Shown: in pieces, positions 34,962-59,373 of the stretch
Position numbering within the stretch: the first letter of the stretch is position 1
Layout: the number at the start of each line of letters is the position of its first letter
From: Balneolaceae bacterium
GTDB taxonomy: Bacteria > Bacteroidota > Rhodothermia > Balneolales > Balneolaceae
DNA length: 64,000 bases
Direction of reading: 5' to 3'
Assembly: GCA_020832285.1 (NCBI GenBank)
Contig: JAFIFB010000079.1
Span: 1 to 64,000 of the forward strand
The notes under the pieces: generated by a model
What the model was told of the DNA's origin: nothing
What the model saw: only the letters and a program-made list of their open reading frames with translations
Database searches by the model: none
Program-made: the position numbers and the translations under genes

Positions 34962-34964
34962 AAG

Positions 34965-35165: not shown

Positions 35166-35240
35166 CGTTTATGTTGGGCATAGAAACGTGTCTCTCAAAT
35201 TCCTGTTTTTACACTCATTAATCCCCTGAATAATTTAAAT

Positions 35241-35358
35241 TGCAATTAAAATTCTGCATACTCAACGAATTGAAAGGAGTTTACATGTAATCACGAAATT
35301 TTAACAGGTTTGGTATTTGTTCACTCAGAGGAGTTTATCAAACTAATCCTCATGACCT
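35241..35358 (+). repeat. Conserved leader of the lipoprotein family, copy B
   Basis: This 118-base segment is almost identical to 43094-43210 and clearly related to the leader at 33100. It carries AAAGGAG (35273-35279), then five bases later ATG-TAA (35285-35290), a start codon directly followed by a stop, and ends at the lipoprotein ATG. It is duplicated with the 5' part of the gene. Confidence 0.85.
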
Positions 35359-37158: not shown

Positions 37159-37251
37159 GATAGAATTGAAACATTAGTAAGCAGTTGTTCTACGAATAAT
37201 GTTCCCGCCAATGGTTTTTTTGCATCGCTTAATAGTGGTTTCTCGTTATTC

Positions 37252-39000: not shown

Positions 39001-39141
39001 AACGACATCATCAGGCATACCCAGCAGATACATAAATTTGTACGTGGACAACTGGATTGGGACAAATCCCGGGAACTCCTGGATGAGATTTTAGAGTCCG
39101 AAGAGTGGATAAAGCATCTTGAAATGGACATGCTAATATAA
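39001..39141 (+). pseudogene. Remnant of a small protein gene
   Basis: An open frame directly after a stop reads NDIIRHTQQIHKFVRGQLDW and DKSRELLDEILESEEWIKHL, ending EMDMLI then TAA. It is amphipathic, charged and protein-like but has no start codon. The family is not recognised. It is likely the 3' end of a gene lost when the lipoprotein gene downstream was inserted. Confidence 0.3.
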
Positions 39142-39294
39142 ATGGTTGGGATAAGTGGTAAAAATTAGTTCTTCCTAATTTTTTCTGCAGATTTGGCAAA
39201 TTAAAAGGAGTATTATTCTACTAAATCTATAATGTAATCATGATTGGAATCGGCATTATGTTGAGGGCTGATCGATAGGCTAACCTCAAGACCC

Positions 39295-41247: not shown

Positions 41248-41647
41248 TGTTATGTCAAAGATAAAACGTCGGGTAAGTCATCAGATGAGTTTTTCTAAAA
41301 TTAAACCAATGAAGATAATTGGGATGATCCCGGATCGACTCGTCTGAAAACTCACTCACACTTATACAGTTGACACGACACTAGTCTTGAGGGCAAGAAG
41401 AAGGGTTAATACTTATGATTCATTCTGACATTTCTGACACTTTAATTATTCCATCCCGCAGGGAGGTATCATGATAAACTACCGTCTTTGGTAGTTGAAT
41501 TTTTTTCAAAACATCATTACAATTGTACAGAAAATAACATTTTCAAAAAATGCAGGACGTTTTACCATTTATCGCGAAGGCATATTTTACAAGTGCTAAA
41601 ATGAGGATGTAACGGTCTTTAATACTTCTTAAAAAGATGTATTATTT
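41248..41647. other. Intergenic stretch between the FISUMP gene and the thioredoxin-like pseudogene
   Basis: About 400 bases with no credible gene. ATG-started frames of about 30 codons exist (for example at 41251) but lack support. Confidence 0.35.
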
Positions 41648-43029: not shown

Positions 43030-43093
43030 GATCCCTGGTTGTTCCTGCTACTCTTAAACAAGGCATTAGATAAAGCTCGGGATTTTTTAATAT

Positions 43094-43210
43094 TGCAATT
43101 AAAATTCTGCATACTCAGCGAATTGAAAGGAGTTTACATGTAATCGCGAAACTTTAACAGGTTTGGTATTTGGCACTCAGAGGAGTTTATCAAACTTATC
43201 CTCATGACCT
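43094..43210 (+). repeat. Conserved leader of the lipoprotein family, copy D
   Basis: This is almost identical to 35241-35358, with one base missing near 43170. AAAGGAG is followed by ATG-TAA at 43138-43143. It ends at the ATG of the next lipoprotein. Confidence 0.85.
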
Positions 43211-45280
43211 ATGAAAAAACTTCTTTGGCTACTTCCGATAATAGGGGCACTGCTACTTTTGGGCCAATCCTGTTCAACGGAAAACACTCCTGTTTATCAG
43301 TTAAATACGTCGGTGGAACCCTCGGATGCCGGAACTGTGAACCAGTCAGCTCAGCAGGTCGATCAGGGAGAAACGATAACTATTACCGCTAACGCCAATG
43401 AACACTGGGTATTTGACCGGTGGAGTGGGGATCACGTTGGCACCCAAAACCCAGCCTCTGTAGTGATGGATGCTGATAAAAATGTTACTGCTCTTTTTGA
43501 AAAAAGAGACTACCCACTGATAATCCATATAGAAGGGGAAGGAACGGTTGATGAAAGAGTGGTGCAAGCTAAAACAACAGATTATCCACATGGTACGGTG
43601 GTGGAGTTAACTGCAAATCCCAAAGAAGGTTGGAAGTTTAGTGGTTGGGAAGAAGATTTAGTAGGTGAAGAAAATCCCGTTGAAATTACTATCGAAGAAG
43701 AGAGAATGGTTACTGCAAATTTTGAAAGAATTGAATATTCACTCAATATAGAAATTGAAGGTAAGGGTGAAGTAAAACAGACTATTGTCAGTTCGAAAGT
43801 TGTGGATTACCCGCATGGGTCGGTTCTTGAATTAGAAGCTGTACCAGAGTCTGGTTCGGTTTTTACAGGCTGGCAGGGAGATATTACTGGTATTGAAAAT
43901 CCAATTGAGCTTGAAATGCTGGGTGAATATACAATTAAAGCAATATTTGAAGAAGTTGCCGATATAGAGGTGGAGGGAAAAGGTTCTGTACATATTGAAC
44001 TTTATAATGATGAAGATCAACATTATCAACAAAAACAAGGCTCCACCGGAAGTAGTTTCAGAACCGGACGCAGATTCAGATTGGCTCCTTACCCGGCCCC
44101 TAAATTTAAATTTTCTCACTGGGAAGGAGCTTATGAAGGAAATGAAGAGACAATTATAGTTGAAGAAGAAGAGGACTTAATAAATATAAGAGCTGTTTTT
44201 TTAACGGAAGAGGCTCAATGGGAACTGCAATTCCACGAGGATGATATTGATTATAATAGCGGTCTAGATTCAAGAGAGACAGAAATCTTTTTAATGGATG
44301 TAAACTTTGCAAATTCCCGTCTTGGATATGCTGTTGGAGGTGGGGCTTCAACTCATTCAAGAAGTTTGATTTTAAAAACTTCTGATGGTGGAGAAACATG
44401 GAGGGAATGGGCTGAATTAGTTGGGACAAGAGAGAAATTTACTTCAGTGTATTCCAGACAAATAAGAAATAGTAATTTCACATGGGCGGGCGGATGGAAT
44501 GGATCTGTGGTTCGAATTACTTCAGGAACAGGATTCGAAGAATTTCATGGATATGAAACAAGAAGTTATGATGGGCAGCCAAATGTTTCAGGAATGCATT
44601 TTTTTCCGGATGTAGATCCAACACGTTCAGTTTCAGAAGGAATTATTACACGATTTGGTGGCCGTAGATATGGAATGTTAAGGAAAAGCTGCTGTATTGG
44701 TTGGTCACCCTACAATCAGTATGGTTCTTTTTGGAATGAAGTTAATTTTCCATATGCATTGCAAGATATCCACTTTCATAAGGGGTGGGGAAACCAAGGT
44801 GAAAAGAACGGTTGGGTTGTTGGATTTACTACGGATCGACGAACTGCTACTGACTGGGATTATATTGGCATAGTCGGACGAACTACGGATCGTGGGTATA
44901 CCTGGGAACTAATCAGGTCAAACATTCATGCAAGGTTTTTGGCTGTTTACTCATTGGGTAAAAATACAGCCTGGGTTACAGGCAGTGCCGGTGGATCTTC
45001 AAGAAGAGGTGGTGTTATTTATCGAACAACCGATGGAGGGGGAAATTGGGAACTACAACTTGAAACTGAAGCGCAGATAACGGATATTCATTTCACAGAT
45101 CATTTTAATGGATGGGCGGTCAGTCGTAGGACTATTTACCGAACAAGAGACGGAGGCGAAAATTGGTATGTAGAAGCATCACTGAGTAGTACACTAAATG
45201 CAATATATTTTACAGATCGAAATCACGGCTGGGCCGTCGGTTATCGCGGTAGTATATATCGATATTTTCCAGTGGAGTAA
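43211..45280 (+). CDS. Surface lipoprotein: InlB-type repeats plus Ycf48/BNR-like propeller
   Basis: The signal peptide MKKLLWLLPIIGALLLLGQSC and the first InlB-type repeats are nearly the same as at 33219 and 35359. There are three to four repeats (about 24-320), the later ones diverged. The C-terminal module (about 335-689) is a beta-propeller of Ycf48/BNR type, with LILKTSDGGETWREW, GRTTDRGYTWELI, VIYRTTDGGGNWELQ and IYRTRDGGENWYVEA, and paired strands such as FNGWAVSRRTIY and NHGWAVGYRGSIY. The module probably binds a protein or glycan at the cell surface. The ligand is unknown. Confidence 0.87.
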   Translation: MKKLLWLLPIIGALLLLGQSCSTENTPVYQLNTSVEPSDAGTVNQSAQQVDQGETITITANANEHWVFDRWSGDHVGTQNPASVVMDADKNVTALFEKRDYPLIIHIEGEGTVDERVVQAKTTDYPHGTVVELTANPKEGWKFSGWEEDLVGEENPVEITIEEERMVTANFERIEYSLNIEIEGKGEVKQTIVSSKVVDYPHGSVLELEAVPESGSVFTGWQGDITGIENPIELEMLGEYTIKAIFEEVADIEVEGKGSVHIELYNDEDQHYQQKQGSTGSSFRTGRRFRLAPYPAPKFKFSHWEGAYEGNEETIIVEEEEDLINIRAVFLTEEAQWELQFHEDDIDYNSGLDSRETEIFLMDVNFANSRLGYAVGGGASTHSRSLILKTSDGGETWREWAELVGTREKFTSVYSRQIRNSNFTWAGGWNGSVVRITSGTGFEEFHGYETRSYDGQPNVSGMHFFPDVDPTRSVSEGIITRFGGRRYGMLRKSCCIGWSPYNQYGSFWNEVNFPYALQDIHFHKGWGNQGEKNGWVVGFTTDRRTATDWDYIGIVGRTTDRGYTWELIRSNIHARFLAVYSLGKNTAWVTGSAGGSSRRGGVIYRTTDGGGNWELQLETEAQITDIHFTDHFNGWAVSRRTIYRTRDGGENWYVEASLSSTLNAIYFTDRNHGWAVGYRGSIYRYFPVE

Positions 45281-45888: not shown

Positions 45889-46899
45889 ATGGCAGATATT
45901 ACTGAAAAGCTACTATTACCAAAGCTACTGATTGGCTCTTTACTTTTTATTCTCGCTTGCGAAAGCGCTGTTATGAGAGAGTTCAATACTCATATGGCTG
46001 GGAGTGATTTCCGTTCGGCAGAGCAAATGCTCGAAAGAGAACTCTCGCAAAATCCTAACAGTGCCGAAGCAAATTTCCTGATGGGTAATGTTCTCAGCCG
46101 GGAGAAGCAATATACCGAAGCCAACACCTATTTTGAACGTTCACTGAATTCCAGCTCAATGTATCGCGAGCATATAGACTATCTAAAAGAGAGAAACTAT
46201 CGGCTGGAATTAAATGCGGGTATTGATGCCTGGGAACGAGAACGTTTCCAGCAAACTGTGCAACTACTTACCTACGCCAACCAGATTTATCCTGAACGGA
46301 TTGAAGTGTACCCTACACTTGGAAGTGCTCTTACAGAAACCGGACAGCACGAAGATGCCCAGCACATGTACCTGCAATGCCTCAATTTTGAACCCGAAAA
46401 TTTTCAATGCGGATTAAATCTCGCAAAATCGTATTACAGTACTTCTATGTATGATGAGGCCATACGTATTGCTCAGGAATTTTCTGAATACTATTCTACA
46501 AATGCCACATTCCTGAAGATACTTGCTTATTCAAATTTTGAAACTGGACACCTTGACCAGGCCCAGGATGCTTTTGACAGAAAATTGAACTTACAAGTAA
46601 ATAATGAAGCTATAAAGCAATTTGCTATTGAGTTGAACAATATCGGAGAGATTTATAGAGCAGAACAATACTTCAGGCGATACCTGGAGCGGATGCCGAG
46701 AGATAAAGACGTCTTGAGCGCACTTTCTTACATCTATTTAGAAACGGGAAATTTCCGGTTAATGGTACAGGCAAACGAGCGCCTTGTTGCTATGGAACCC
46801 GCGAACAGACAGCTCAAAGAAAATTTGATGCTTGCGTATGAACTGCATGGAGATATTGACAACTACAGAGCGATTAAATCTGACCTTGGCCTGGATTAA
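45889..46899 (+). CDS. TPR-repeat lipoprotein, first gene of the motor operon
   Basis: The lipoprotein-type signal is KLLLPKLLIGSLLFILAC, Cys at about residue 24. Five or more TPR units follow (SAEANFLMGNVLSREKQYTEANTYFERSL, YPTLGSALTETGQHEDAQHMYLQCL, YDEAIRIAQEFSEYY, HLDQAQDAFDRKLNL, VLSALSYIYLETGNFRLMVQANERL). It probably scaffolds partners in the periplasm at a membrane. The stop overlaps the next start (TAATG), showing translational coupling with the surface-protein gene. Confidence 0.85.
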   Translation: MADITEKLLLPKLLIGSLLFILACESAVMREFNTHMAGSDFRSAEQMLERELSQNPNSAEANFLMGNVLSREKQYTEANTYFERSLNSSSMYREHIDYLKERNYRLELNAGIDAWERERFQQTVQLLTYANQIYPERIEVYPTLGSALTETGQHEDAQHMYLQCLNFEPENFQCGLNLAKSYYSTSMYDEAIRIAQEFSEYYSTNATFLKILAYSNFETGHLDQAQDAFDRKLNLQVNNEAIKQFAIELNNIGEIYRAEQYFRRYLERMPRDKDVLSALSYIYLETGNFRLMVQANERLVAMEPANRQLKENLMLAYELHGDIDNYRAIKSDLGLD

Positions 46900-49397
46900 T
46901 GGACCGATTTGCAAAAGATATGATGAAAACTATATTTAATATTGGATTACTGTTACTTTGCATGCTTCTACTCTCATTTCAGTATGCATCGGCACAGTTT
47001 GTAGTAAGCAGTCAGTCTCCTGCACCTAACAGTACAGAAGCCGCTGCCTCTGATCCTATCACTATCACATTTAATCAAAATGTTAGCCAGTCGAGTCTTA
47101 ATGGTGGAATTTTTGTATACGGTTCAGTATCCGGAAGCATAGAGGGAAATATTTCAACTTCATCTAATACCGCTGTTTTTACACCTTCAAATCCGTTTTC
47201 TGAAGGTGAACAAGTATTCATATCTGTTACTGAAAATGTTCAATCCAGCGGAGGGGAACCATTAAGCCAGCCTTTTTATTGGTCGTATCGCGTACAGCCA
47301 TTCGTTGGTAGCTATGAATTTTCACAGCCCCAGATATACACACTTCGGGAAGGAAGCGAACCTTCCGGCATTTATGCAGTTGACCTTTCAAATAATCGTG
47401 CCCCGGATATTGTAGTTGTTAATTCAAACAATACTCTTGTAACTATACTTGAAAACCGGACTCAAATTTCTGATGATTTTTCAATAGTTAGCGAAATTGA
47501 AACCGGAATAGAGGTTCAGTCAAATGAAATTATTGAACCTGGTTTGGCCTTTGCTACAACATCACTTCCTGCGAATTCCGGTATCACAGCGGCTGATCTG
47601 AATAACAATGGGTTTACAGATGTCATTATCTCTGCCACTTTATCTAATCAGCTGATTATCCTTCGCAACCAAGATGGTGATCCTTCCAATATGGAACTTC
47701 AATTTATAGATACGGGAGAACGTCCTGTTGATGTATTAAGTGGTGATTTTAATGGAAATGGTTATATGGATCTTGCTGTGGCTTCTTTGGGTTCAGACAG
47801 GGTTTTTATACACTATAACAATGGTGCCGGTTCATTTGGAAACCCTCAGTCACATTCTGTAGGACTTGCTCCCACAGCTATTTCAGCGGAAGATATTAAT
47901 GGCAACGGATTGCTTGATATCATTGTAGCAATTTCAGGCGAAAATCGGGTAGAAGCTCTTCTTAACCAGGGAAATTCAAATTTCAACAATAATATATTGA
48001 TGGATAATCTTTCCTTTAATCCATCATTCATGGTTACAGGTAATTTTGTAAGGGAAAATAATAACGATTATCCGGACATTATTTTAGGCTCGTCTGACGA
48101 AAGAATATTTTCCATTTTTGAAAATACAGGAGGCAGCTACTCTTTTGCTGCATCCCGCACAACGGGTAATTCATCAAGGCCGCTTGCAGGTGCTGCAGCA
48201 GATTTAGACAGTGACGGGGCTTTGGACTTATTAACAACACACTTTGGTTCGAATGACCTGATAATTAATGAATTCACTTCTTCAACGCTTTTTGGTTCTC
48301 AAATTACTGTGGATAATAATGTGTCAGGACCATTGGGTATTACTTCTGCTGATTTGAATCTCGGTGGATCCATGGATATCGCTGTTTTGAGTTCAACAAA
48401 CAATCAGGTTCGTATTTACTTTAATCTTTTTGAAAGTGAAGTTTGTGAAGATATCACTGCTGGTCTAACATTTCCGCAAGTAGTTAATTTTGGTGCAGTT
48501 GAGGTAGGTCAGACCTCAACCCGTCAATTTCAAATTGTAAATAATAGTGAAGTCTCATTTGATGTAACTCTTGAAATAGCATCAGGAAATAATTTCAATT
48601 TGGAAACTACATCTGAGTTTGATCTGGCAATTGGTTCACAGAGAAATATAACCGTTTCATTCACACCAGATGATATTGATGAATTCTCGGATGAATTGAT
48701 TATGAGGGTCAATTCTGTGTGTGGAGTACAAACGTTTAGAATTGACCTATTAGGAGAAACGGGCGAACCTTTACCAGACCTTGTTGCAACAGCAATTAAC
48801 TCTATCTCATTCGAAACTGAATATTTACTTGGTACTTCCTATGAGTTTGAAGGAGTTTTTACACTTGAAGGTGATGTAGTGGTTGATGATCCATTTAATG
48901 TTTCTTTTTTGGTGAACGGAGAGGTTGAAGAAGTTATTCGGGTTGACGAAACCATTCAGCCTGGACAAACAAGGGCATACTCCTTCAGCTTTAGCTTTTC
49001 TCAGCCCGGGGCCAATACAATAACCTTTTTTGTTGATTCAGATGATGAAATCGAAGAAATGGATGAAACAAACAATGAAATTTCGATAAATATCACAGTA
49101 TCAGAAGGCGGAGTTTTAGTCAGTCCAAATCCATTCACACCAAATAACGATGGTTTTAATGATTCTGTTCAATTTAATCTGACTCAATTAGCAAATGTAA
49201 CCAACCCTAACATTCAGATTTTTAGTTTTAATGGCAGGCTTGTCCGCACCTTACGGGGTGAAGATTTCGGAGGCTCATTTATTGAGTGGGACGGTACAGA
49301 TGAAAACGGAAACGTCTTGCAGCCCGGAGTATATCTTTATGTGGTTGAAGATAATAACAACATGGTAATCAGAGGCGCTGTCACTTTAGCATTGTAA
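46899..49397 (+). CDS. Secreted FG-GAP repeat protein with CARDB and gliding-motility-type C-terminal domain
   Basis: The signal peptide ends near QYASAQ. Domains seen: a Big_5-type Ig domain (about 35-130, SPAPNSTEAAASDPITITF), FG-GAP/VCBS repeats (about 145-510, ITAADLNNNGFTDVIISA, VLSGDFNGNGYMDLAVAS, ISAEDINGNGLLDIIVAI), an ASH-like domain (about 525-625, VNFGAVEVGQTSTRQFQI), CARDB (about 630-735, DETNNEISINI), and a C-terminal domain with VSPNPFTPNNDGFNDSVQF and LQPGVYLYVVED. The last is typical of type B T9SS and gliding-motility cargo. Such cargo usually works with an adjacent PorP/SprF-like protein, which follows 20 bases downstream. It is the likely client of the machine encoded by this operon. 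Confidence 0.88.
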   Translation: MDRFAKDMMKTIFNIGLLLLCMLLLSFQYASAQFVVSSQSPAPNSTEAAASDPITITFNQNVSQSSLNGGIFVYGSVSGSIEGNISTSSNTAVFTPSNPFSEGEQVFISVTENVQSSGGEPLSQPFYWSYRVQPFVGSYEFSQPQIYTLREGSEPSGIYAVDLSNNRAPDIVVVNSNNTLVTILENRTQISDDFSIVSEIETGIEVQSNEIIEPGLAFATTSLPANSGITAADLNNNGFTDVIISATLSNQLIILRNQDGDPSNMELQFIDTGERPVDVLSGDFNGNGYMDLAVASLGSDRVFIHYNNGAGSFGNPQSHSVGLAPTAISAEDINGNGLLDIIVAISGENRVEALLNQGNSNFNNNILMDNLSFNPSFMVTGNFVRENNNDYPDIILGSSDERIFSIFENTGGSYSFAASRTTGNSSRPLAGAAADLDSDGALDLLTTHFGSNDLIINEFTSSTLFGSQITVDNNVSGPLGITSADLNLGGSMDIAVLSSTNNQVRIYFNLFESEVCEDITAGLTFPQVVNFGAVEVGQTSTRQFQIVNNSEVSFDVTLEIASGNNFNLETTSEFDLAIGSQRNITVSFTPDDIDEFSDELIMRVNSVCGVQTFRIDLLGETGEPLPDLVATAINSISFETEYLLGTSYEFEGVFTLEGDVVVDDPFNVSFLVNGEVEEVIRVDETIQPGQTRAYSFSFSFSQPGANTITFFVDSDDEIEEMDETNNEISINITVSEGGVLVSPNPFTPNNDGFNDSVQFNLTQLANVTNPNIQIFSFNGRLVRTLRGEDFGGSFIEWDGTDENGNVLQPGVYLYVVEDNNNMVIRGAVTLAL

Positions 49398-49417
49398 AGT
49401 TTCAAAGTTCGAACTTC

Positions 49418-51202
49418 ATGATTAAACGTATAATTTTACTACTATTTTTATTTTACATTTTGTTTTGGAAAACAGCTTATGGACAGGATTTTATCTATGG
49501 TCCTGCCACAAGTATTATGGATAGTAAAGCTCAATTTGCGAACCCGGCAATTATATCATTCCAGCCATCGCATTTTTCACTTGGAGTAAAAGCTTATCAC
49601 ATGGGATTCTTTGAGAATTCACAGTTTGACTACAGGCATGGCTACTTTACACTTTCCACACCAAGAATGGTAGGTAGCAGGTTTGGTAGTGGGCTACAGG
49701 TTCAATATTTCGATAGCCCTATATTCAGCCGGTCTCAATTTGGCGGCTCGGCTTCGCTGCAAATTTTGAGGCGATTAGCTATAGGAGCAAATATTTCACT
49801 GCACCATATCGGTTATAATCAGGACAATTTTGTTGGATTTGATTTTGATGATCCTGTATTTCAGGATGGATTCTCTGGATATGCTTTAAATACGGCAGCA
49901 GGTATTTATGCCAGACCTATATCAGATCTTGAAATTGGCGCAGGAGCAAGAAATATCAATGAACCCGACCTTTCTCTTATTGGAGCAAATGCCAATGAAC
50001 CTATGGAGATCTTTGCGGCAGTAAGTTACAACTTTGGCTTGCTTAAAGGAACGTTTGAAATCATTGAGGGGCGATATGGTTTACAAAACAGAACTCATAT
50101 AGAAGCTTATTCTACAAAGGGTTACTACGTAAGGGCCGGAGCCAATATGAATTTTGACAGTGGATATCTTGAAGCACAGGCTCATGTTTTCGGAGGTTTC
50201 AGTGTAAACTATCAATATGAACTACCAATAAATGAGTTCTCTGGAAATACGAGTGGTTCTCATATGTTCTCGTTGATTTATGAATTTAACAGAGTGCCTC
50301 CTCTCCCGGAGCGAAGAAGCCCAGTTGCAATACAAACATCATTTGAGCGGTCAAGAAGTTCTGCACAATTACCTTCTGCAATACTATTAAACTCAGACAC
50401 TGATCATCTTAAATTATATGAAATCAATTTAAACAGGAGAGTTGACTATGCAACAGTGACAGAGTTTGACCTTGCAGCACTTTCAGGATATGACATTGGT
50501 AGACTCGAAGAACAACCTGAATTGGAAAGATCTCCTTATCAGAATATAAAACCAACTGAGGCTCCACTTCCTGAAACTATAGATCTTACCGTCTCAGTTT
50601 CGGATCAATACCGACAAACCATCGAACTGCTTAAAAATTATTTATCTGAAGAACGAATACAAGAATTGCAAATACTAATAAATGAAGGTTCTGAAATAAG
50701 GGCTTCTGGGTTAAGAAATACTATTCAAGAAGAAGATTTGCTACCGGTATTCATATCCGAATTTGTTCTTAACGAAGAAGACTCGGCGTTGTATCAAACA
50801 CCCGTTGATGAAACTATGTTACTTGCATCCGATACAGTGACACGATTAAATCCGGAAACAGCAAGAATTCGTCCCATCTTTACAGCGCCTATAAATGTGA
50901 CCAACTGGTCATTGAATATATTTAATCAGAATGACCTTTTAATCAACCAAATTAATGGTACTGGAAACGTACCTGAATATATCGAGTGGGATTGGGCAGA
51001 CAATAACGGTGAACTCGTAGAACCCGGCCTTTATTATTACAATCTGAGATGGGTTGATCATAACGGCGTCGAAGAAATTTCACGTCCCAGAAACCTTTAT
51101 GTCCAAAAAATTGAGCGGAATATCACAATTGACATCACAAAAGACATTGAAAGAATTATGGATGACCCGGATCAAATTAACGTAATACTAAAAAATAACT
51201 AG
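49418..51202 (+). CDS. PorP/SprF-like outer-membrane protein with long C-terminal extension
   Basis: The N-terminal 290 residues fit the PorP/SprF type IX secretion membrane protein family. There is a signal peptide (ending AYGQD), SIMDSKAQFANPAI near the N-terminus, repeated barrel strands (GSGLQVQYFDSPIF, GYALNTAAGIYARPISDLEIGAGARNI) and YLEAQAHVFGGFSVNYQYEL. The extension (about 295-594) is unusual. It ends in a FlgD/gliding-like Ig fold (NWSLNIFNQNDLLINQING, WADNNGELVEPGLYYYNLRW) that resembles the end of the upstream cargo protein. It may tether that cargo or link to the periplasmic motor. Confidence 0.78.
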   Translation: MIKRIILLLFLFYILFWKTAYGQDFIYGPATSIMDSKAQFANPAIISFQPSHFSLGVKAYHMGFFENSQFDYRHGYFTLSTPRMVGSRFGSGLQVQYFDSPIFSRSQFGGSASLQILRRLAIGANISLHHIGYNQDNFVGFDFDDPVFQDGFSGYALNTAAGIYARPISDLEIGAGARNINEPDLSLIGANANEPMEIFAAVSYNFGLLKGTFEIIEGRYGLQNRTHIEAYSTKGYYVRAGANMNFDSGYLEAQAHVFGGFSVNYQYELPINEFSGNTSGSHMFSLIYEFNRVPPLPERRSPVAIQTSFERSRSSAQLPSAILLNSDTDHLKLYEINLNRRVDYATVTEFDLAALSGYDIGRLEEQPELERSPYQNIKPTEAPLPETIDLTVSVSDQYRQTIELLKNYLSEERIQELQILINEGSEIRASGLRNTIQEEDLLPVFISEFVLNEEDSALYQTPVDETMLLASDTVTRLNPETARIRPIFTAPINVTNWSLNIFNQNDLLINQINGTGNVPEYIEWDWADNNGELVEPGLYYYNLRWVDHNGVEEISRPRNLYVQKIERNITIDITKDIERIMDDPDQINVILKNN

Positions 51203-51208
51203 AAGATT

Positions 51209-52735
51209 ATGTTCATAAACAAATACACTTCTGCATTTATTGTAATTTTGCTTTTTTCATTTCTCATCTTTCAAACAGAAATTAAAGCACAGGAAGCAGA
51301 ATCTCCTGATGATCAAGTAGAGGTAGTAGAGGAAGATTTAGAAGAGTCTGATATATTGGACTCATCCAGTATTTGGGATTTAGTTGGACAGGCTGGTGGT
51401 ATTCGATATCCTATTTACGCTATACTCATTGTTGGAATCTTTTTAATCAGCCTCAGATCATATGAACTATATAATGACAAAATCCAGCAGAAAGATCTTG
51501 TTGAGACATCGTTTAGGAACCTGTCGTTAAATGAAATAAGTTCTAAAATTTCTATACAACAGGATTATATGCTATCAAGAATTATGGCAAAACTTCTGAA
51601 TGTTTTCCAAACAAATAGGAATGCTGACTACCTCCATGACGAAATTTCGAATTATAATACTGTACAACAGGGTAATTTCAATACCTTTAAAAACCGAATT
51701 GACTTTCTTTCAGACACTGCCGGAGCTCTTGGGCTTTTAGGAACCGTTTGGGGTATGTTTATGGTATTCTCATCTGGTACACTCGAAAGGGAAGTAATTC
51801 TTGTTGGTATGGGAATTGCACTTTTATCTACTTTTTTAGGGCTGGTTGTAAGTATTATTCTAAACTTTTGCTCCACACTCACAGAAGGATACTTTTCAAA
51901 GCACCTTGAAAGTGTTACCACCAAAGCAGACGAACTTCGATTTAGATTAATTGAGCTATCCGAAACGCCCACAGCAGTTCCAGTTACTGCGAATGTTAAT
52001 AACAATAGTCATTCCAAAGAAGTGCAACAATCTGTACAAAAGAAAGCACCTGAAAAAAATAGTAAAGAAGATCAGGCAAAGCCTGTAGCCAAGGAGCAAG
52101 TTAATGAACCTGCTAAAATTGTTCTTTCTTCTGATATAAAACCTGTATCAGCAGGTGATTCGTTTGATGAAATTCAAGTAAAACTAATGGGCACCATGGA
52201 TGGGCCGGTTTCAGGCTCTGAACTGGAAATGGTACTTGAAGGCGAAGGTAAAGTGAATGGAAAGAATGGAAAATATTCAGTTAAAACCGATGAAAATGGT
52301 ATTGCTGCATTTCAGTGGACACCTGACTCTGATGTTGGTGAGAAAAGAGCATTTATAAGAAGTAAAGAAAACAAGAAAACAAAGCTTGTTTTAAACCCAA
52401 AAGTAATTGCAGGTGAGCCTGAAACTTTGAAATTACTTAACAATCACCAGGCTGGCATAATGGGAAACCAACTTGAGAAACCTGTTAGTGTAATTGTAAC
52501 TGATAAATTCGAAAATCCTGTCTCTTCTATTAATGTGCTTTTGAAAGTAACAATGGGCAATGGTACGTTTTCAAATGGACGGCGAGAAACTACTGCTGTA
52601 ACTGATGAGGAAGGAAAAGTATTTATAGATTTTACATTAGGATCTGAACCAGGATTTAATGCCATAGATATTACTCTGCCTAAATATAACATTACAAAAT
52701 CCTTCCAGGCCGTAGGGCAGGAAGTAACTGTTTAA
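51209..52735 (+). CDS. ExbB/TolQ/MotA-like proton channel fused to C-terminal Ig-like domains
   Basis: A signal-like segment (1-28) is followed by TM1 at about 68-84 (YPIYAILIVGIFLISLRSY), TM2 at about 168-188 (SDTAGALGLLGTVWGMFMVF) and TM3 at about 197-220 (VILVGMGIALLSTFLGLVVS). The TM2-TM3 block is the ExbB/TolQ core with the G-L-L-G-T-V-x-G-M and T-x-x-G-L-V-V-S motifs. A Lys-rich linker (255-300) leads to two Ig-like domains of the Big_1 type (about 302-400 and 405-508, YSVKTDENGIAAFQWTPDSD and NGRRETTAVTDEEGKVFIDF). Normal ExbB proteins end after TM3. By standard ExbB topology this extension would lie in the cytoplasm, which is odd for Big_1. It probably pairs with the two ExbD-like proteins that follow. 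Confidence 0.85.
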   Translation: MFINKYTSAFIVILLFSFLIFQTEIKAQEAESPDDQVEVVEEDLEESDILDSSSIWDLVGQAGGIRYPIYAILIVGIFLISLRSYELYNDKIQQKDLVETSFRNLSLNEISSKISIQQDYMLSRIMAKLLNVFQTNRNADYLHDEISNYNTVQQGNFNTFKNRIDFLSDTAGALGLLGTVWGMFMVFSSGTLEREVILVGMGIALLSTFLGLVVSIILNFCSTLTEGYFSKHLESVTTKADELRFRLIELSETPTAVPVTANVNNNSHSKEVQQSVQKKAPEKNSKEDQAKPVAKEQVNEPAKIVLSSDIKPVSAGDSFDEIQVKLMGTMDGPVSGSELEMVLEGEGKVNGKNGKYSVKTDENGIAAFQWTPDSDVGEKRAFIRSKENKKTKLVLNPKVIAGEPETLKLLNNHQAGIMGNQLEKPVSVIVTDKFENPVSSINVLLKVTMGNGTFSNGRRETTAVTDEEGKVFIDFTLGSEPGFNAIDITLPKYNITKSFQAVGQEVTV

Positions 52736-52751
52736 ACTCTGAGCTGTAACT

Positions 52752-53144
52752 ATGAAAAGAGGACGTTTTCTTCTTCGTTTTGTTGATGTAGTATTAATAC
52801 TCTTGTTTGGGTTTATAGTCATATCCGATATAGATGAAGAATCCCAGATCATTTTACCAAGTAGTTCTGAGACTGAAATGTTTACACCCGGAGCGGAAGT
52901 TGTCTTATTTATTGGTATTACGTCTGATGGTAATTATATCGATGAGCGTGAAAATATACTCTTTCCAAATGAACAACAGTTAACTCGTTATATAAGTCAG
53001 CATAAAAACAGATATGGTGAACTCGCTAAAGTACGAATACGTGCCAATTATGACACACAAGCAAGGCATGCTATAAGAGTTGCGCAAATATGTGATGAAG
53101 TTGGAATTAAAAAAGCATTGGATGTCAGATTACTAAGCAGATAA
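52752..53144 (+). CDS. ExbD/TolR-like protein, copy 1
   Basis: This has a single N-terminal membrane helix (FLLRFVDVVLILLFGFIVISDI, residues about 6-27), preceded by a basic KRGR and carrying Asp in the helix (RFVDVVLIL). That is the position of the proton-carrying Asp in ExbD/TolR. The periplasmic part (about 45-130) has the ExbD pattern of TRYISQHKNRYGELAKVRIRANYDTQARHAIRVAQICDEVGIKKA. At 130 residues it has normal length. The stop overlaps the next ATG by one base. Confidence 0.87.
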   Translation: MKRGRFLLRFVDVVLILLFGFIVISDIDEESQIILPSSSETEMFTPGAEVVLFIGITSDGNYIDERENILFPNEQQLTRYISQHKNRYGELAKVRIRANYDTQARHAIRVAQICDEVGIKKALDVRLLSR

Positions 53145-53560
53145 TGAAAAAAAGTACATTTTTAATACGATTCATTGATATTGGTTTAATCATATTATTT
53201 GGATTTATCATTATCAGTGATATTACTGTTCGATCCCAAATCGAATTACCCGGTTCAGACCCTGGTGAACCCCAGGAAGAACGAGAATTAAATTTATTCG
53301 TCATCAATATAGAGCCTAACAATCAATATAGGTTAGCAGATTTTGTGGAATCCACAATTATTGGCACTTATGATGGTATTGAACATCTTGAATCAGCATT
53401 AAGAAGCTTAATAGATGAGATACAGTCACAAGGTAAATCACCCGTAGCGTTAATTGAACCTGATGAAACTGTAACTATGCAGAGGCTAATTGACCTGATG
53501 GATTTATGTGATCAGATAGGAATTCCAAAAAATGTAAATGTAGAATCTCTGAGGTTATAA
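53144..53560 (+). CDS. ExbD/TolR-like protein, copy 2
   Basis: This paralogue of the preceding gene begins with the same layout (KKSTFLIRFIDIGLIILFGFIIISDITV), again with Asp in the membrane helix. The periplasmic domain is ExbD-like (LESALRSLIDEIQSQGKSPVALIEPDETVTMQRLIDLMDLCDQIG). Two ExbD paralogues per ExbB suggest a heteromeric motor shaft. Its start overlaps the previous stop, and the next gene starts immediately at its own stop, so expression is strictly coupled. Confidence 0.87.
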   Translation: MKKSTFLIRFIDIGLIILFGFIIISDITVRSQIELPGSDPGEPQEERELNLFVINIEPNNQYRLADFVESTIIGTYDGIEHLESALRSLIDEIQSQGKSPVALIEPDETVTMQRLIDLMDLCDQIGIPKNVNVESLRL

Positions 53561-54649
53561 ATGATTATACCCGAGAAAAATGAGGATCCCAGAAAGCGTT
53601 ATTTTTCAGTAACAGTAACTGCTGTAATCTGCTTTCTTTTCTACATAGGCCTGGTCATAGCATCAGTTACTGATTCTGGATCTACAAGAGTGCATATGAC
53701 AGAGCTAACCCAATTAAATATTTCCAACTTCCAGCCTCGCGTACCCGAACCTGATATACAGCCAGAGCCTGATGATCCTGCTCCACAGGAAGAAAGTGCA
53801 GCAGAAACCGAGATTGTGGAAGAGATTACAACACCACAACGAGTGGATATGACCGAGATTTTACCACAGGGTGTTCAGGTAGATCTTTCTATTTCAAGAT
53901 CACCAACTGAAAATACTGCAAGATCTCAGCAGAGTAATGCAGAACAAACTCAATCACGATCGCTTCGGGTAGAAGAAGCTGAAATGGAAAGGATAGGTGG
54001 TTTACAAACACTTTCTGGTGGTACCTTAACATCCCCATCTGCAAATCGACGATCTGTAGGATCCAATGGAGGTGCTGCTGGTGGTCTTGATATTGCTGAG
54101 GGTGGTGAATTAAGTGGTGGAAGAAGAGGTGTTACTGACGGGGGTGGTACTGGAGGGCTTTTAAGTGGCCCACAAGTTAGAGATGGTAATAGAGAGGGAC
54201 AAGAGGTTGGACTACGGGATTTGACTGAGTTTGGAGAAGGATATTCAGACATGGATCCGATTATTCATGATCTGATTAAGTGGATGAAAGAAAACCCGGC
54301 AGAACTTCCAACACCTGTTCGAAGAACCATGGGTGATGGTCGATGGGACCCTGATTTTTTAACCTCAAGAGTACCCTTTATTATTGAAGACAGACAATTT
54401 GACTTATTGCTGATGGTCAAAGAAGAGCTTTTGGAGGTACATATTTTTCTTGTTGAAAGCCATGATGCTACTTACCTGATTGATCGGGGGTTTCAAGAAA
54501 CGTCAAGCTTCCTGAGACGCGGCAGTGTAGGATATCAGGAAGATATTGTTGAGGTTGATTCTCAAATGAGAGCTGCCAATCGACAACACACACAAGAGTT
54601 TTATCAAATATTTCTTAGTTGGTGGAATACGGTAAAATCTGATTTATAG
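53561..54649 (+). CDS. TonB-like inner-membrane protein with unusual C-terminal domain
   Basis: The N-terminus has a short cytoplasmic basic end and one membrane helix (about 15-37, VTVTAVICFLFYIGLVIASV). A proline- and acid-rich periplasmic stretch (about 58-90, PRVPEPDIQPEPDDPAPQEE) and a Gly-rich linker (about 150-215) follow. This is the TonB/TolA layout. The last 140 residues (about 222-362, DPIIHDLIKWMKENPAELPT and FDLLLMVKEELLEVHIFLVE) are not a canonical TonB C-terminal domain. By position it is the energy transducer between motor and outer-membrane partner, but that is inferred. Confidence 0.72.
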   Translation: MIIPEKNEDPRKRYFSVTVTAVICFLFYIGLVIASVTDSGSTRVHMTELTQLNISNFQPRVPEPDIQPEPDDPAPQEESAAETEIVEEITTPQRVDMTEILPQGVQVDLSISRSPTENTARSQQSNAEQTQSRSLRVEEAEMERIGGLQTLSGGTLTSPSANRRSVGSNGGAAGGLDIAEGGELSGGRRGVTDGGGTGGLLSGPQVRDGNREGQEVGLRDLTEFGEGYSDMDPIIHDLIKWMKENPAELPTPVRRTMGDGRWDPDFLTSRVPFIIEDRQFDLLLMVKEELLEVHIFLVESHDATYLIDRGFQETSSFLRRGSVGYQEDIVEVDSQMRAANRQHTQEFYQIFLSWWNTVKSDL

Positions 54650-54679
54650 AATTAAAAAAAACTACAAAATTCACTGAAC

Positions 54680-56188
54680 ATGAAAATAATACACTACCTG
54701 AACATTTTTTGTTTTCTGTTTATCACTGCATGTGCTACGAGTTCATCGTACAGTTCACTTGAAGACCAACCACATGATGAAGAAAGCCCCAGGGAATTAA
54801 TGATACCTGCCGGGGTTGACAGCGTTATTGCAGCTGAAGCACGTGAACTTGCAGATTCATCATTTGTCACCTATCAGAGAGAACAAGAAGCAGAAGAATT
54901 AAAAAGGCGTGCTAATGCATACAGAGCTGAGAGTGATACACTTTGGCATTACTTATCTTTGGAAGCAACAGATGAACCTGATAACATGCAAGATGATCCG
55001 GACTTTGTGGATTCCTTTAATGAAGGAGCACAATATTTTGGTGAAGCAACTACAATTGCAGAGTCAAATGAAATATCAGAAGCTGATTTAGAGCAATATT
55101 CATTGCTACTGGCAAATGCTATAAACTCATTTGAAGAAGCCCTTCAGTTAAATCCATTCGACTCACAAACCAGGCTTGTATTAGCTCAGCTATACGGAGC
55201 AAAAGCCAACAGATTAAATCAAACGGAAAATTATGAACGTGCCATTGATATACTTGAAAAGCTTGTTCGCTTGGAACAAGGACAATTCGTTATTTATGGG
55301 GCACTGGGAGAAAATTACTACTTGGTAGAAAATTTTGAAACGGCCGCTCAAAATTTTGATAAAGCAATTGAATTGCTTCATGAAACCATCCCATTCACAG
55401 ATTACTATTTTGAACATAATTCCTACAGCCCGGATGATTCATTAAATGTTTTTTTCTATGAATTCTATGCAGGGCAATCATACACAAACCTATTTGACGC
55501 TGATACTGCAATTGAAAGGTTTGAAAATGCCCAAAACTATGCAACCTCTGAAAATGATTTAGCTGCCATTGAAGGTGAGCTGGAATTTATTAATTGGGAT
55601 GATGGAAATATTCTGGGCAGTATGCGGCGGGATTCCTTGATTTCTCTTGTAAACAGTGATCAATTAGCAGAGGCAGAAGCTGGCTTTTTTGAACTGAAGA
55701 ACAGTTTGAAAACTACCCGTGCAAAGGATGAAATTGAATGGCGTCTTGCTGTAGTTCAATACCAGCTTGGAAAAGAAGAAGAGGGTGCCAACCGGCTGTT
55801 AAATTTAGTTCAACGAACAGAAGTTGATGAAAATGGCTCTCCTATAAATGAAGCCTACAGGGAATATTTCAATGATTTTGGTACAATTACCTATAATTTG
55901 GGGGTAAGATACAACAGTGAAAGAGATCGTAATTTAGCTTTAAAGTACTTCCTTCAGAGTGCCAAAGTAAGTTGGAGTAACAGGGCGAGATCTAATTTAA
56001 TGATTGCAGATTTACTAAGTAATAATACTAATGAATCTCTACAGTATGCATTACTTGCAGAACAAGAAATTGAATCGTTGAGTGAAAATGATAGAAAAGC
56101 ACTCTATGAGCTTCTTACAAATTTGTATAGAAGTTCAGGTGAAATGGAAATGGCAAGAAACTACCTCCAGTTGTGGAGAGAATTATAA
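54680..56188 (+). CDS. TPR-repeat lipoprotein, second in the motor operon
   Basis: The lipoprotein signal is MKIIHYLNIFCFLFITAC. TPR-like repeats span about 135-480, with AINSFEEALQLNPFDSQTRLVLAQL, ALGENYYLVENFETAAQNFDKAIEL, NLGVRYNSERDRNLALKYFLQSAKV and ANRLLNLV. It probably lies in the periplasm, scaffolding outer-membrane components. It is 30 bases after the TonB-like gene. Confidence 0.82.
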   Translation: MKIIHYLNIFCFLFITACATSSSYSSLEDQPHDEESPRELMIPAGVDSVIAAEARELADSSFVTYQREQEAEELKRRANAYRAESDTLWHYLSLEATDEPDNMQDDPDFVDSFNEGAQYFGEATTIAESNEISEADLEQYSLLLANAINSFEEALQLNPFDSQTRLVLAQLYGAKANRLNQTENYERAIDILEKLVRLEQGQFVIYGALGENYYLVENFETAAQNFDKAIELLHETIPFTDYYFEHNSYSPDDSLNVFFYEFYAGQSYTNLFDADTAIERFENAQNYATSENDLAAIEGELEFINWDDGNILGSMRRDSLISLVNSDQLAEAEAGFFELKNSLKTTRAKDEIEWRLAVVQYQLGKEEEGANRLLNLVQRTEVDENGSPINEAYREYFNDFGTITYNLGVRYNSERDRNLALKYFLQSAKVSWSNRARSNLMIADLLSNNTNESLQYALLAEQEIESLSENDRKALYELLTNLYRSSGEMEMARNYLQLWREL

Positions 56189-56196
56189 AGGTTAAT

Positions 56197-57030
56197 ATGG
56201 TTAGATTATTTAAAATATTATTATTGCTTTGTGCATTTGTTATCTGTTTCTCTTCACTAATTGAGGCAAGGCAACAATACCAGGAACCGGAAGTTTCTGT
56301 AATATTTCGAAATATTGCAGAAATAACAGATCCAGCATCTATAGAAATTATTATAGATGACTTCTTAATAACAGAGTTTATTGAAGATATAGAACGAATT
56401 GAGGTCATTGATGTCAGTAATATTGGATTTGGCACTAATGATATTTTGGTGGTACACCCATCTCGAAATGTGTATTTACTTGACTCTCCATCATCACCAG
56501 AACTATTAGAAACAATGCAAAATTGGACAATTACTGAACAGAGAAGAGATGCATCTAATGTTTTATCAGCAGATGATTTTTACCCCACCCATGCTGATAC
56601 TTTAGAAAGCTGGGAGTTGGAAGAAACGCAAATTGAACTGGTTCAGAACTCACTTATTTCAGATGTTCTAACATCATTAAACAGAAACTATACTGAGCTT
56701 CCCATCAGTTTCAGGTTTGAACGAGATCATGATGGTTTTACTTTCCAGATGTGGAATTATGACGAAGATGCATTTTTATTCACCCCTCGTCCACCAGGTG
56801 TTGCAGACAGTGTGGCTGTAAACGATTTTCTTTATGTGCTATACAGCGATTCAACAGTTGTTGCAGATACCACATTATATGACGTGATTTATATTAATAA
56901 AACTATTCAGGAAACCATTCATGTTCCTGAAATTGAAGAGCAAGAAATAATTCAGACACAAACCCTCCCCGGTTCAGAAGCTTTTATAAATGAATTGCAA
57001 AATCTGGAAGCAACAATTAGAAGAGAATAA
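56197..57030 (+). CDS. Exported protein of unknown function, last gene of the motor operon
   Basis: The signal peptide is MVRLFKILLLLCAFVICFSSLIEA. I start at ATG 56197, preceded by AAAGG, rather than the GTG at 56173 that lies inside the upstream gene. The mature part of about 250 residues has two mixed alpha/beta halves (EPEVSVIFRNIAEITDPASI and LPISFRFERDHDGFTFQMWN) that I do not recognise. No lipid or sorting motif is seen. It ends 3 bases from the stop of the convergent protease gene. Confidence 0.78.
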   Translation: MVRLFKILLLLCAFVICFSSLIEARQQYQEPEVSVIFRNIAEITDPASIEIIIDDFLITEFIEDIERIEVIDVSNIGFGTNDILVVHPSRNVYLLDSPSSPELLETMQNWTITEQRRDASNVLSADDFYPTHADTLESWELEETQIELVQNSLISDVLTSLNRNYTELPISFRFERDHDGFTFQMWNYDEDAFLFTPRPPGVADSVAVNDFLYVLYSDSTVVADTTLYDVIYINKTIQETIHVPEIEEQEIIQTQTLPGSEAFINELQNLEATIRRE

Positions 57031-57033: not shown

Positions 57034-59373
57034 TTATTTCACAAAAGTTTTCTCTTCTGAAAAAAAATTCATCGCTTTTTGGAATCCCTCCCCATCCCAA
57101 TACAACAGTGAATCCTGATATGCTTCAAAGTATTCATAGCCGGGAATAAACGGAATTTCTCCTTCTTCGTAAAGCTCTCTTGATATTATATCATACAAAT
57201 CATTCGTTCCAACACCGATCGGGGTCATCGTTCGGTCGAAATAAAGAATTGTAAAGATATCTTCATTATAATCTCTGAAATATCTTCGTCCTTCTGCAAT
57301 CTGAAACCATATACTTTCACTAACATTATCAAAAAATATATACCGCCCCTGATTGTATTTTTCGATAGAGCTTAAATACTCACCAATAGGTGTTTTCGGT
57401 ACAAGTATATAAGCAAATTCATTAGCTGCATGAATTCCTTCTGGTTTGTAATCCTCTGTTAAGGGTGAATGGCCTTGAGCATTATTAGCTTCTAAAACAA
57501 CAATAGCTGCATTCCAAAAAGCATTATTTATTCCGGTTAAAATTATTTCATTGACTCCATTTCCTGTCAAATCAGCCAGTATCATGGCTCTTAATTGGCC
57601 AATATGAACGTATTCTGAAATAATTTCTCCATTTTGAACATTTAGCAAAAAAACTACATTTTGAAAATAGATATTGGAGCTTGCATTTATTACGATTTTA
57701 TTAAGCCTATCTGTTTCAATGTATCCAATTTGATTACTTCTCAAGCCGGTCTCAAGAAGAGCACTCTGTCTTGGGAAATTGTAATTCAATTTTAATTCTT
57801 TTTGCCAAATTAAAGAATCGCCACTAACAGACCAAGCTGAAACAACGGAAGTTTGTTCATCAGCTCTGTTACCTCTGCTCGTCCATATTAATTCATTTTG
57901 CCCGTCATTTGTAATATCTGCCAAAACTGCTAACGGGTTTACTTCAATATCGCGTTGAGTTGACTGATAATGAGCGGTTTCAGCATCAACTGTTATTTTA
58001 TTTATTTTACTTCCGCTGTTATTGGCTAGTACCAAATAATTACCTTCAAAAGAAAAAGAGGCAGGGTTTCTGTCCCGAGGTTCAGTTATCAAAGCTATTA
58101 TTATGCCTAATAAAACAATCGAAAATGCCGCACTAACAGGATTTCCAATTTTCTCTGATACATTCCTGTAATACTGAGATATCAGATTTGTTCTGACAAG
58201 ATCAGTTACTCTTCGGTCATAAAATAGATCTTCTAATTTATTTGCGCCAACTACATCCAAGCTTCTTGATGGATATTTATTTTGGAGCTTTTCAATTTCC
58301 CTTTCGAATAACGTTTTTTGTGATTGAGGTACAACAAGTACATCAATCCAAGAAAAAAAAGCTGCTTTTGTTTTTTGATATATTGATTCAGAAGATATCT
58401 CTACCACCTTACCATCACTTTCAACATCACCGGTGATTGCAGCATCAGGATTAATTATAAACTTCTCACGGTTTCCGGTTTTTTTTAATAAGGCTGAATA
58501 CCATAATGCAGATATAGCGAGATTGGCTGAAGTTCCGTCGTGTAGTGCACCGGTTAATTCATAGCTAATTAATCCTTTAAAAAAAGTATTATTTAATTTA
58601 TTTGTTCTTTCTCTTAATAGTTTTCTTGTAGCATTTAAAACCTCTCTTTTATAAAGATATGTGGGCTCTTCTATACCATAGACATTGAAACTTCGACTTA
58701 GCTCATCTTCACTTTTAGATTCACTGTATAGTTCAATTGAAATCCTCCTTAACCTCCCGGAATTTATGGAAGATGCTTCGTCGTTATCAACATAATCTTC
58801 AACCACGGGAATCATTACCTTCCCTATTTTTTTTTCAATCAGTAGCTGAACTTCTTTTTTCAGTGAATTTAACTTTTTTATCTCTCTGTCAAGTATTTGA
58901 ATTTCATGAATTAAGTATTTGAATAAAATTTTAATACCCACTTCTGAAGATACTTCAGCAAATTTTGATAAACTGGAAACTCTACAACCGGTCAAATCTT
59001 CTAAATGTTTTTCAGCCACTTCAAACTCATTCAGACAACTGTATGAATAAACACAAACTTCATGCAATCTTTCATTGATTTTTTTAAAATGAGTGCTCTT
59101 TCTCAAGGCAGGCAACTCTGATATGAGTGTTGCAAATAGATCAAGATCATCTTCTAATTCATCAGGGTCAATACCACTCCATGTAACAGGCAAACCATAC
59201 AATGGTAAATCAGCTATAATGTGGCTGATATAACTCTCATATCTTTTATACTCTCCCTCTAATTCTTTTACAAAATTTCTGAAAATGTGATATCGGTATC
59301 TTATAGATACAGAATTTTCAAATTGATATATCAGCTTTTGAAATAATTGTTGAATTTGAACAGGATTGGGCAT
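57034..59373 (-). CDS. Membrane protein with cytoplasmic Lon-type (S16) protease domain and periplasmic FG-GAP propeller
   Basis: Residues 1-200 are helical and charged. About 235-390 match the Lon proteolytic domain: ALHDGTSANLAISAL aligns with the Lon serine motif (D-G-P-S-A-G), giving S282. AAITGDVESDGKVVEI aligns with A-M-T-G-E-I-x-x-x-G-x-V, and YQKTKAAFFSWIDVLVVP aligns with the Lys helix, giving K334, three residues before A-A as in Lon. There is no AAA+ ATPase part. One membrane helix follows at about 413-433 (SAAFSIVLLGIIIALIT). FG-GAP-like repeats then span the rest (LAVLADITNDGQNELIWTS, RAMILADLTGNGVNEIILTG). Thus the protease should be cytoplasmic and the propeller periplasmic, a sensor-protease layout. 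The signal and the target are unknown. Confidence 0.75.
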   Translation of the reverse strand: MPNPVQIQQLFQKLIYQFENSVSIRYRYHIFRNFVKELEGEYKRYESYISHIIADLPLYGLPVTWSGIDPDELEDDLDLFATLISELPALRKSTHFKKINERLHEVCVYSYSCLNEFEVAEKHLEDLTGCRVSSLSKFAEVSSEVGIKILFKYLIHEIQILDREIKKLNSLKKEVQLLIEKKIGKVMIPVVEDYVDNDEASSINSGRLRRISIELYSESKSEDELSRSFNVYGIEEPTYLYKREVLNATRKLLRERTNKLNNTFFKGLISYELTGALHDGTSANLAISALWYSALLKKTGNREKFIINPDAAITGDVESDGKVVEISSESIYQKTKAAFFSWIDVLVVPQSQKTLFEREIEKLQNKYPSRSLDVVGANKLEDLFYDRRVTDLVRTNLISQYYRNVSEKIGNPVSAAFSIVLLGIIIALITEPRDRNPASFSFEGNYLVLANNSGSKINKITVDAETAHYQSTQRDIEVNPLAVLADITNDGQNELIWTSRGNRADEQTSVVSAWSVSGDSLIWQKELKLNYNFPRQSALLETGLRSNQIGYIETDRLNKIVINASSNIYFQNVVFLLNVQNGEIISEYVHIGQLRAMILADLTGNGVNEIILTGINNAFWNAAIVVLEANNAQGHSPLTEDYKPEGIHAANEFAYILVPKTPIGEYLSSIEKYNQGRYIFFDNVSESIWFQIAEGRRYFRDYNEDIFTILYFDRTMTPIGVGTNDLYDIISRELYEEGEIPFIPGYEYFEAYQDSLLYWDGEGFQKAMNFFSEEKTFVK

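Follow-up and report, generated by a model that had tools for sequence, protein, structure and literature searches.

The stretch of DNA analysed here, 64,000 nucleotides in length and referred to as the window, comes from contig JAFIFB010000079.1 of a Balneolaceae bacterium (phylum Bacteroidota) and carries a three-gene cassette on its minus strand. The first gene, P0003 (60353-61357), encodes a 334-residue protein that is probably a divergent sigma-70-like factor, as suggested by weak fold and profile evidence together with the gene order. It is followed by P0002 (59491-60300), which encodes a soluble, probably anti-sigma-like protein of 269 residues with an N-terminal domain resembling zinc-binding anti-sigma (ZAS) domains and a separate C-terminal domain. 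The third gene, P0001 (57034-59373), is an intact open reading frame (ORF) with an ATG start, and its 779-residue product was assigned from the family alignment and an AlphaFold2 model as a membrane protein in which a Lon-type (S16) protease domain is joined through a transmembrane helix to a beta-propeller. The model has a mean predicted local distance difference test score (pLDDT) of 85.7 and a predicted template modelling score (pTM) of 0.53, and a search of the genome found one copy of the P0001 gene.

Along P0001, a helical N-terminal domain delimited by DSSP assignment of the model (residues 1-180, 58834-59373, minus strand as for all features of this gene) precedes the Lon S16 domain (residues 181-395, 58189-58833), which was recognised by fold and profile matches. 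A single transmembrane helix (residues 412-430, 58084-58140, mean Kyte-Doolittle hydropathy 2.43) then leads to an FG-GAP-type beta-propeller that is predicted to be extracytoplasmic (residues 435-723, 57205-58071), as judged from structural comparison, FG-GAP_3 matches in relatives and topology, and the model ends in C-terminal helices past the propeller (residues 724-779, 57037-57204). A profile of the N-terminal domain matches 44 of 68 collected S16 proteins, and partner docking is proposed as the role of this domain.

Even though P0001 alone has no match of weight in Pfam, NCBIfam or the PDB sequences (the single-protein search of the PDB sequences covered P0001 only), the Lon S16 domain is real. 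A full-length profile of the family, built from 17 relatives, found 8dvh_A as its best PDB match (E 6.7e-4) in an alignment running through both catalytic motifs, and a profile restricted to the S16 domain (35 of 60 S16 spans used) matched 1z0e_A at E 2.4e-10. The Pfam family Lon_C (PF05362) scores 13.9 bits on the isolated S16 span of P0001, under its gathering cut-off of 21.1, and matches 17 of the 35 family spans at E <= 1, with 1.1e-7 as the best value. The best 50 Foldseek rows obtained with the P0001 model are all Lon proteins, and the structural comparison by VIA superposes model residues from about 180 to 392 on LONP1 and E. coli Lon with Z scores of 17-18 (2.4-2.7 Å over 171-181 residues), the matched entries being isolated protease domains of Lon, 6wzv_B and 3wu4_A among them, as well as several full chains. 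An initial annotation of this DNA, made from its letters, had proposed a Lon-type identity that a fold unlike S16 would have contradicted; Foldseek and VIA both return the S16 fold, and the family profiles match Lon in the PDB.

The same annotation placed the catalytic serine S282 within DGTSAN and the lysine K334 within QKTKAA, and both positions were borne out by the alignment with 8dvh and 1xhk, where they fall in the Lon catalytic columns (codons at 58528-58530 and 58372-58374, respectively). Among the 68 S16 proteins examined, which include two Lon-like proteins outside the P0001 family (L164 and L165), the serine column holds S in 65, L in two and no residue in one, and the lysine column holds K in 65, I in one, C in one and no residue in one, so that each residue is kept in 65 of the 67 aligned proteins. 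This conservation indicates that the Ser-Lys dyad is under selection. The two proteins without the serine also lack the lysine (L087:2004-4199 and L088:7522-9756), and each adjoins a second copy with the dyad intact; the pairs that they form, L087:145-4199 and L088:5654-9756, are Lon-like membrane proteins and possibly combine a protease with a pseudoprotease. The distance between serine and lysine, which was expected to exceed that of E. coli Lon by about nine residues, is 52 in P0001 versus 43 in this genome's own Lon, and among 64 measured hits, 59 have a spacing of 52, two of 50 and one of 67, while both outside proteins have 43. The reported absence of the AAA+ part also holds, as a Walker A pattern that finds GPPGVGKT in the genome's own Lon has no occurrence in P0001 or in any other of the 68 S16 proteins.

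For the membrane topology, the one helix described by the annotation agrees with a single hydrophobic segment at residues 412-430, between the S16 domain and the propeller, and a segment of this kind lies between the two domains in all 57 collected proteins that contain both. The residues flanking the helix were counted in 55 single-segment proteins, nine of which are fused forms described below; lysine and arginine are more abundant on the N-terminal side in 47, on the C-terminal side in two and equal in six. The protease domain is placed inside the cell because of this family-wide bias of positive charge towards the protease side. The propeller that was said to follow the helix is likewise supported by its fold, with residues 434-727 of P0001 superposing on chain 6vbu_2 of the BBSome (Z 15.3) and two FG-GAP-like motifs lying near residues 486 and 601. 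FG-GAP_3 matches 11 of 17 family members at E <= 1, the best at 1.2e-4, and the score of P0001 itself is weak (E 0.16). One relative, L030 (438 residues), terminates past the helix. This arrangement fits the suggestion of a protein in which the propeller would sense outside the cell and the Lon domain would cut inside.

The gene order of the cassette appears to be widely conserved. BLAST searches with the window's own P0002 and P0003, which are independent of the family profiles, place both beside the receptor gene in most of the relatives collected first. Counted with profiles that were built partly from the counted loci themselves, and taking as near any gene on the same strand within 7 kb on either side, a P0003 relative is found near 46, a P0002 relative near 44 and both near 42 of the 56 Lon-like genes with at least 2.6 kb of upstream sequence; for all 63 Lon-like rows the numbers are 49 for P0003, 48 for P0002 and 52 for either. 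Neighbourhoods were collected for most matches of the class-wide and phylum-wide searches, apart from those of G150, G205, G070, G334 and G438 and the second matches in G194, G246, G254, G258, G316, G476, G493 and G514. In addition, a single sigma/anti-sigma pair may be followed by tandem receptor genes, of which there are three in L023, two in L022 and two in L069, and one pair has four Lon-propeller genes nearby in L151. In the four tandem pairs compared, the propellers are only 27-41% identical, whereas the S16 domains share 46-60% and the C-terminal helices past the propeller 46-96% of their residues; a propeller that is less alike than the protease domain is as expected if the sensors diversify.

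For P0002, Pfam and NCBIfam gave nothing useful and PADLOC gave one helix-turn-helix (HTH) model at E 0.018; two weak PDB matches of its family were rejected. The anti-sigma assignment draws on its relatives. The motif Hx3CxxC is a signature of zinc-binding anti-sigma domains, and it occurs in the P0002 relatives of L028 and L033 in the first alignment and in five soluble relatives of a later batch. Ten other proteins of Bacteroidota, 444-863 residues long, have the N-terminal domain of P0002 fused to a propeller without an S16 domain, matching the P0002 profile at E values from 2.9e-9 to 7.1e-4. A hydrophobic segment separates the two domains in nine of the ten (that of L134 is under the threshold), Hx3CxxC is present in all but L138, and a P0003 relative lies directly upstream in nine, L138 being located at a contig end. 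In six of ten P0002-type relatives tested, zf-HC2 matches were obtained at E 0.0058 to 0.27. Because the same propeller is fused to an anti-sigma-type domain elsewhere, it is probably a sensor common to the fused and the Lon-bearing forms. The ORF of P0002 begins with TTG, and in the first alignment 10 of 14 sequences have leucine at position one; should translation truly start there, the cell might keep the amount of inhibitor low.

For P0003, the top 12 rows of the VIA comparison with its model (pLDDT 83.3) are chains from structures of sigma factors or of RNA polymerase initiation complexes, the chain identity being taken for some from the entry title. Their Z scores are 5.7-7.8, and scores below 8, or below about 13 in the case of helical bundles, can arise from a common arrangement. 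Four of these rows cover P0003 from residue 1 or 12 to residue 116 at 2.8-3.1 Å over 82-91 residues, a span that we take to be the place of sigma region 2, and the other eight cover the whole chain at about 20 Å, so that only the first domain superposes. A 48-row profile of P0003 residues 1-131 was compared with the 29 extracytoplasmic function (ECF) sigma factors of this genome and aligned its columns 12-67 with columns 10-68 of the sigma profile, at a score of 19.3 and E 0.015 (the best of ten shuffles reached 16.0 and the reversed control 15.6) and with a probability of only 3%. The sigma identity is favoured because an anti-sigma-type gene lies next door, and we consider it likely, with the identity of P0002 as its anti-sigma partner being probable. 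The sigma-like gene of G005 consists of two overlapping ORFs, the longer of which was used. Searches of Pfam, NCBIfam and PADLOC with P0003 alone yielded nothing of use, and weak, scattered matches of P0003 or its family to CheZ, troponin and poxvirus RNA polymerase were rejected.

The taxonomic distribution of the receptor is patchy. It was identified in 16 of 98 relatives by single-protein search, in 37 of 244 genomes of the class and, counting several genomes that have the fused form only, as matches in 50 of 394 genomes drawn from the phylum; the only matches in G418 and G505 of the phylum set are Lon-like proteins outside the P0001 family. P0003 relatives are present in 45 of the 244 class genomes, and a nine-row profile matched, among named records, Rhodohalobacter sulfatireducens WB101 and three metagenome-assembled genomes of Balneolaceae. 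The parts of the system also appear in other combinations. A subtilisin-type membrane protein (Peptidase_S8; L168:5461-8397 and L170:5437-8361) replaces the Lon receptor in two loci, where its gene is the first on the same strand after the sigma-like gene, and the S16 domain is joined to other ectodomains, namely a DUF5122 propeller in L087 and a LamG-containing one in L162. The latter (L162:3-3032), an S16 protein with a transmembrane segment and the LamG-containing ectodomain instead of a propeller, was seen on a short contig.

From the features computed for the family (the S16 fold, the conserved dyad, the absence of Walker A, the charge bias at the helix, the propeller, the cassette and the fusions), we infer catalysis by P0001, its substrate, the polarity of the signal and a working sigma factor in P0003. 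Lon domains act as hexamers. It is plausible that the propeller, located outside the cytoplasm, would sense a ligand of the envelope or cell surface, and that the signal would pass through the one helix to alter the cytoplasmic S16 domain, perhaps by oligomerisation, which is suggested by the hexameric state of Lon domains and by the Lon protease CalpL, which is reported to oligomerise on activation (PMC11417357). The S16 domain would then cleave P0002, its most likely substrate and the anti-sigma-like protein presumed to hold P0003, in a limited way; the cut of an exposed loop appears likelier than full degradation because P0001 has no recognisable motor. Freed P0003 would direct RNA polymerase to a small regulon that, in some relatives, perhaps includes genes for large surface or secreted proteins that follow directly downstream. 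In short, P0001 may be a single-pass receptor protease of the inner membrane that cuts P0002 and so frees P0003, a proposal to which we assign about an even chance of being correct.

Several results weigh against this proposal. The Foldseek search with the P0003 model returned nothing at E <= 1e-3, P0003 has no Pfam match to Sigma70_r2 or Sigma70_r4, and no Pfam sigma family is among the matches listed for 13 members of its family, nor among those for 28 (25 of 28 families listed). A 28-row P0003 profile scored 19.1 against the ECF sigma factors, with controls at 10.0-17.8, on another stretch and without significance; the full-length 48-row profile reached 21.3 versus 20.1 for the best shuffle, and its global score of 6.7 is below the 7.8 of the reversed control. 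Confidence in both the sigma identity and the proposed mechanism is somewhat reduced because the full-length score is so close to those of the shuffles. P0002 lacks the Hx3CxxC ligands in the alignment, the zf-HC2 matches of its relatives are all under the curated cut-off, and a zf-HC2 search of the window's own genome found nothing. The flanks of the P0001 helix are tied at two lysine or arginine residues each, and G012 (L166) has a sigma-like and anti-sigma-like pair without a Lon protease. In addition to the partial circularity of the profile counts, a P0003 relative was not found near 10 of the 56 testable Lon-like genes (L072, L074, L079, L084, L153, L155, L156, L157, L159 and L160); among these, L072 and L074 have a P0002 relative, and L153, L155, L156, L157, L159 and L160 belong to more distant families. 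The weak sigma evidence, including VIA scores that stay under 8, speaks for an alternative in which P0003 is some other helical or nucleic-acid-binding protein and the cassette is a protease-regulated switch of a different kind, for instance in stress or defence. However, sigma factor structures head the VIA list, the broader profile aligns the region-2 segment, and partners with Hx3CxxC lie directly downstream, which is typical of ECF sigma operons; as no PADLOC model matched P0001 or P0003, and P0002 has only the HTH match, this alternative seems distinctly unlikely. A defence or plasmid setting was dropped on the same PADLOC result and on the lack of a plasmid record matching P0003.

The anatomy and gene order of the cassette are silent on sign and substrate, and the same parts could therefore work in the opposite sense, with the ligand turning off a protease that is active at rest, or with the sigma-like protein itself being degraded, so that the regulon is lowered. 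A soluble Lon has been reported to have sigma-T as a substrate (PMC10662116); however, the fused form puts the output of the sensor at the anti-sigma step, and CalpL is reported to cut the anti-sigma and not the sigma factor (PMC11417357), and on this balance we regard an inverted sign or another substrate as rather unlikely. The fusions can also be read differently, as they suggest that no Lon domain is needed for a propeller to control an anti-sigma-type domain, and two relatives have lost both catalytic residues. The S16 domain might serve mainly as a docking scaffold, P0001 being a membrane anchor that binds and releases P0002 and P0003 by conformational change and replaces the direct fusion. 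The retention of serine and lysine in nearly all aligned proteins speaks against such a scaffold, and a dyad-less copy beside an intact one, as seen for both double mutants, is what one would expect if the family consists of active enzymes that now and then have a pseudoenzyme as partner, which makes a mainly scaffolding role quite improbable. As for quality control, which Lon domains usually serve, an ordinary membrane protease with incidental neighbours would hardly explain the conserved neighbours, the patchy distribution, the tandem receptors with diverging propellers and the missing Walker A pattern, and this reading is strongly disfavoured.

Among known systems, the closest comparison is the type III CRISPR-associated CalpL/T/S unit of Sulfurihydrogenibium, in which the Lon protease CalpL reportedly senses cyclic tetra-adenylate (cA4) with a SAVED domain and, on this signal, cuts the anti-sigma factor CalpT bound to the ECF sigma factor CalpS (PMC11417357). 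Like this unit, the P0001 cassette appears to join a Lon-type protease, an anti-sigma and a sigma factor, the latter two with identities that are probable, and CalpL (7qda_A) is weakly present among the S16 profile matches (E 0.073). In contrast to CalpL, P0001 has an FG-GAP propeller beyond a membrane helix in place of SAVED, and no SAVED match was found for it in Pfam or PADLOC. It is proposed, by analogy, that the cassette works like CalpL/T/S without being a member of that system. The ten fusions resemble the transmembrane ZAS-type anti-sigma factors of ECF sigma factors, with their ZAS-like N-terminus and upstream sigma-like gene, whereas in the window P0002 is a soluble protein, and a distinct protein with a Lon domain serves as the membrane sensor. 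P0001 shares the S16 fold and the Ser-Lys dyad with LonA, LonB and LonC (MEROPS S16) but differs from them in the absence of Walker A, the transmembrane helix past the protease domain, the propeller and the dyad spacing of 52 rather than 43. YlbL is another membrane-anchored S16 protease without an AAA+ part, as P0001 is; it differs in carrying a PDZ domain and in acting outside the cytoplasm, on a cell-division inhibitor, and we know of no sigma/anti-sigma partners for it. A membrane Lon-like protease of this YlbL type is reported for B. subtilis (PMC6051672). The statement of the initial annotation that no described family has this architecture agrees with the open-licence literature of PubMed Central (PMC), where the papers found were those on CalpL and general ones on sigma and anti-sigma factors, none of them seen to describe the cassette.

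In textbook outside-in control of sigma factors, a membrane-spanning anti-sigma factor is cut from both sides by separate proteases. In P0001, sensor and protease are apparently one molecule and the inhibitor is soluble, and in the two-gene form of other families the sensor sits on the inhibitor itself; these paired architectures provide a testable story of a rewired signalling path. The cassette may represent a distinct class of one-pass receptor proteases with a cytoplasmic S16 output and exchangeable ectodomains, in which a divergent sigma-70 lineage is freed by the cutting of a soluble anti-sigma factor, although we advance this tentatively and put its chances slightly short of even. Held with the same reserve, just under an even chance, is the further reading that this class coexists in the phylum with the simpler propeller-anti-sigma fusion and that the CRISPR unit CalpL/T/S could be a rewired relative, a nucleotide sensor having replaced the membrane sensor. 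Under the proposal, CalpL would have a possible counterpart outside CRISPR, and a concrete candidate role and substrate would go to a Lon-like family that single-protein searches of Pfam, NCBIfam and PADLOC, and of PDB sequences for P0001, leave unnamed.

The genes downstream of the receptor may provide hints about the regulon. Large and secreted products are encoded by 12 of 29 downstream same-strand genes versus 33 of 383 other genes (Fisher p 9e-6), an enrichment that is suggestive only, as secretion was called by a crude hydrophobicity rule, thresholds were set once the data had been seen and the genomes are relatives of one another; for the fused form the number is 2 of 8 (p 0.15). Secreted-looking and mostly large proteins are encoded downstream of the receptor on the same strand in L024, L025, L029, L031, L069, L070, L071 and L079, and they represent a possible regulon. 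Some of these loci encode a NYPNPFNP-type tail, presumably like those known from type IX secretion. In the window itself, no gene on the same strand directly follows the cassette; a convergent gene (56173-57030) stops 3 bp from the P0001 stop, and its counterpart in the equivalent position of L002 is 70% identical. The DNA upstream of 15 sigma-like genes was also read for a promoter motif, and GGGGTTA-like strings were seen shortly upstream of many of the start codons, for instance in L023, L070 and L071. As an autoregulatory promoter motif these strings were not used, since they overlap the start codon in the window and come without a statistic.

Elsewhere in the window, the ORFs at 33192, 35359, 39295 and 43211 share nearly the same lipoprotein-like start, MKKLLWLLP(I/V)IG, which in the ORF at 33192 begins a few residues in, and differ downstream of it, and FNQPIGSWDVSSVT-type repeats make up the ORF at 37252; the region 33192-45280 looks like a cluster of diversifying surface lipoproteins. 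The gene run at 46899-57030 includes an FG-GAP-like secreted protein together with TonB-like and TPR proteins, and, named by reading, the product at 51209 is presumably of the MotA/TolQ/ExbB type and those at 52752 and 53144 are taken to be ExbD-like, so that this run reads like an energised envelope or secretion cluster.

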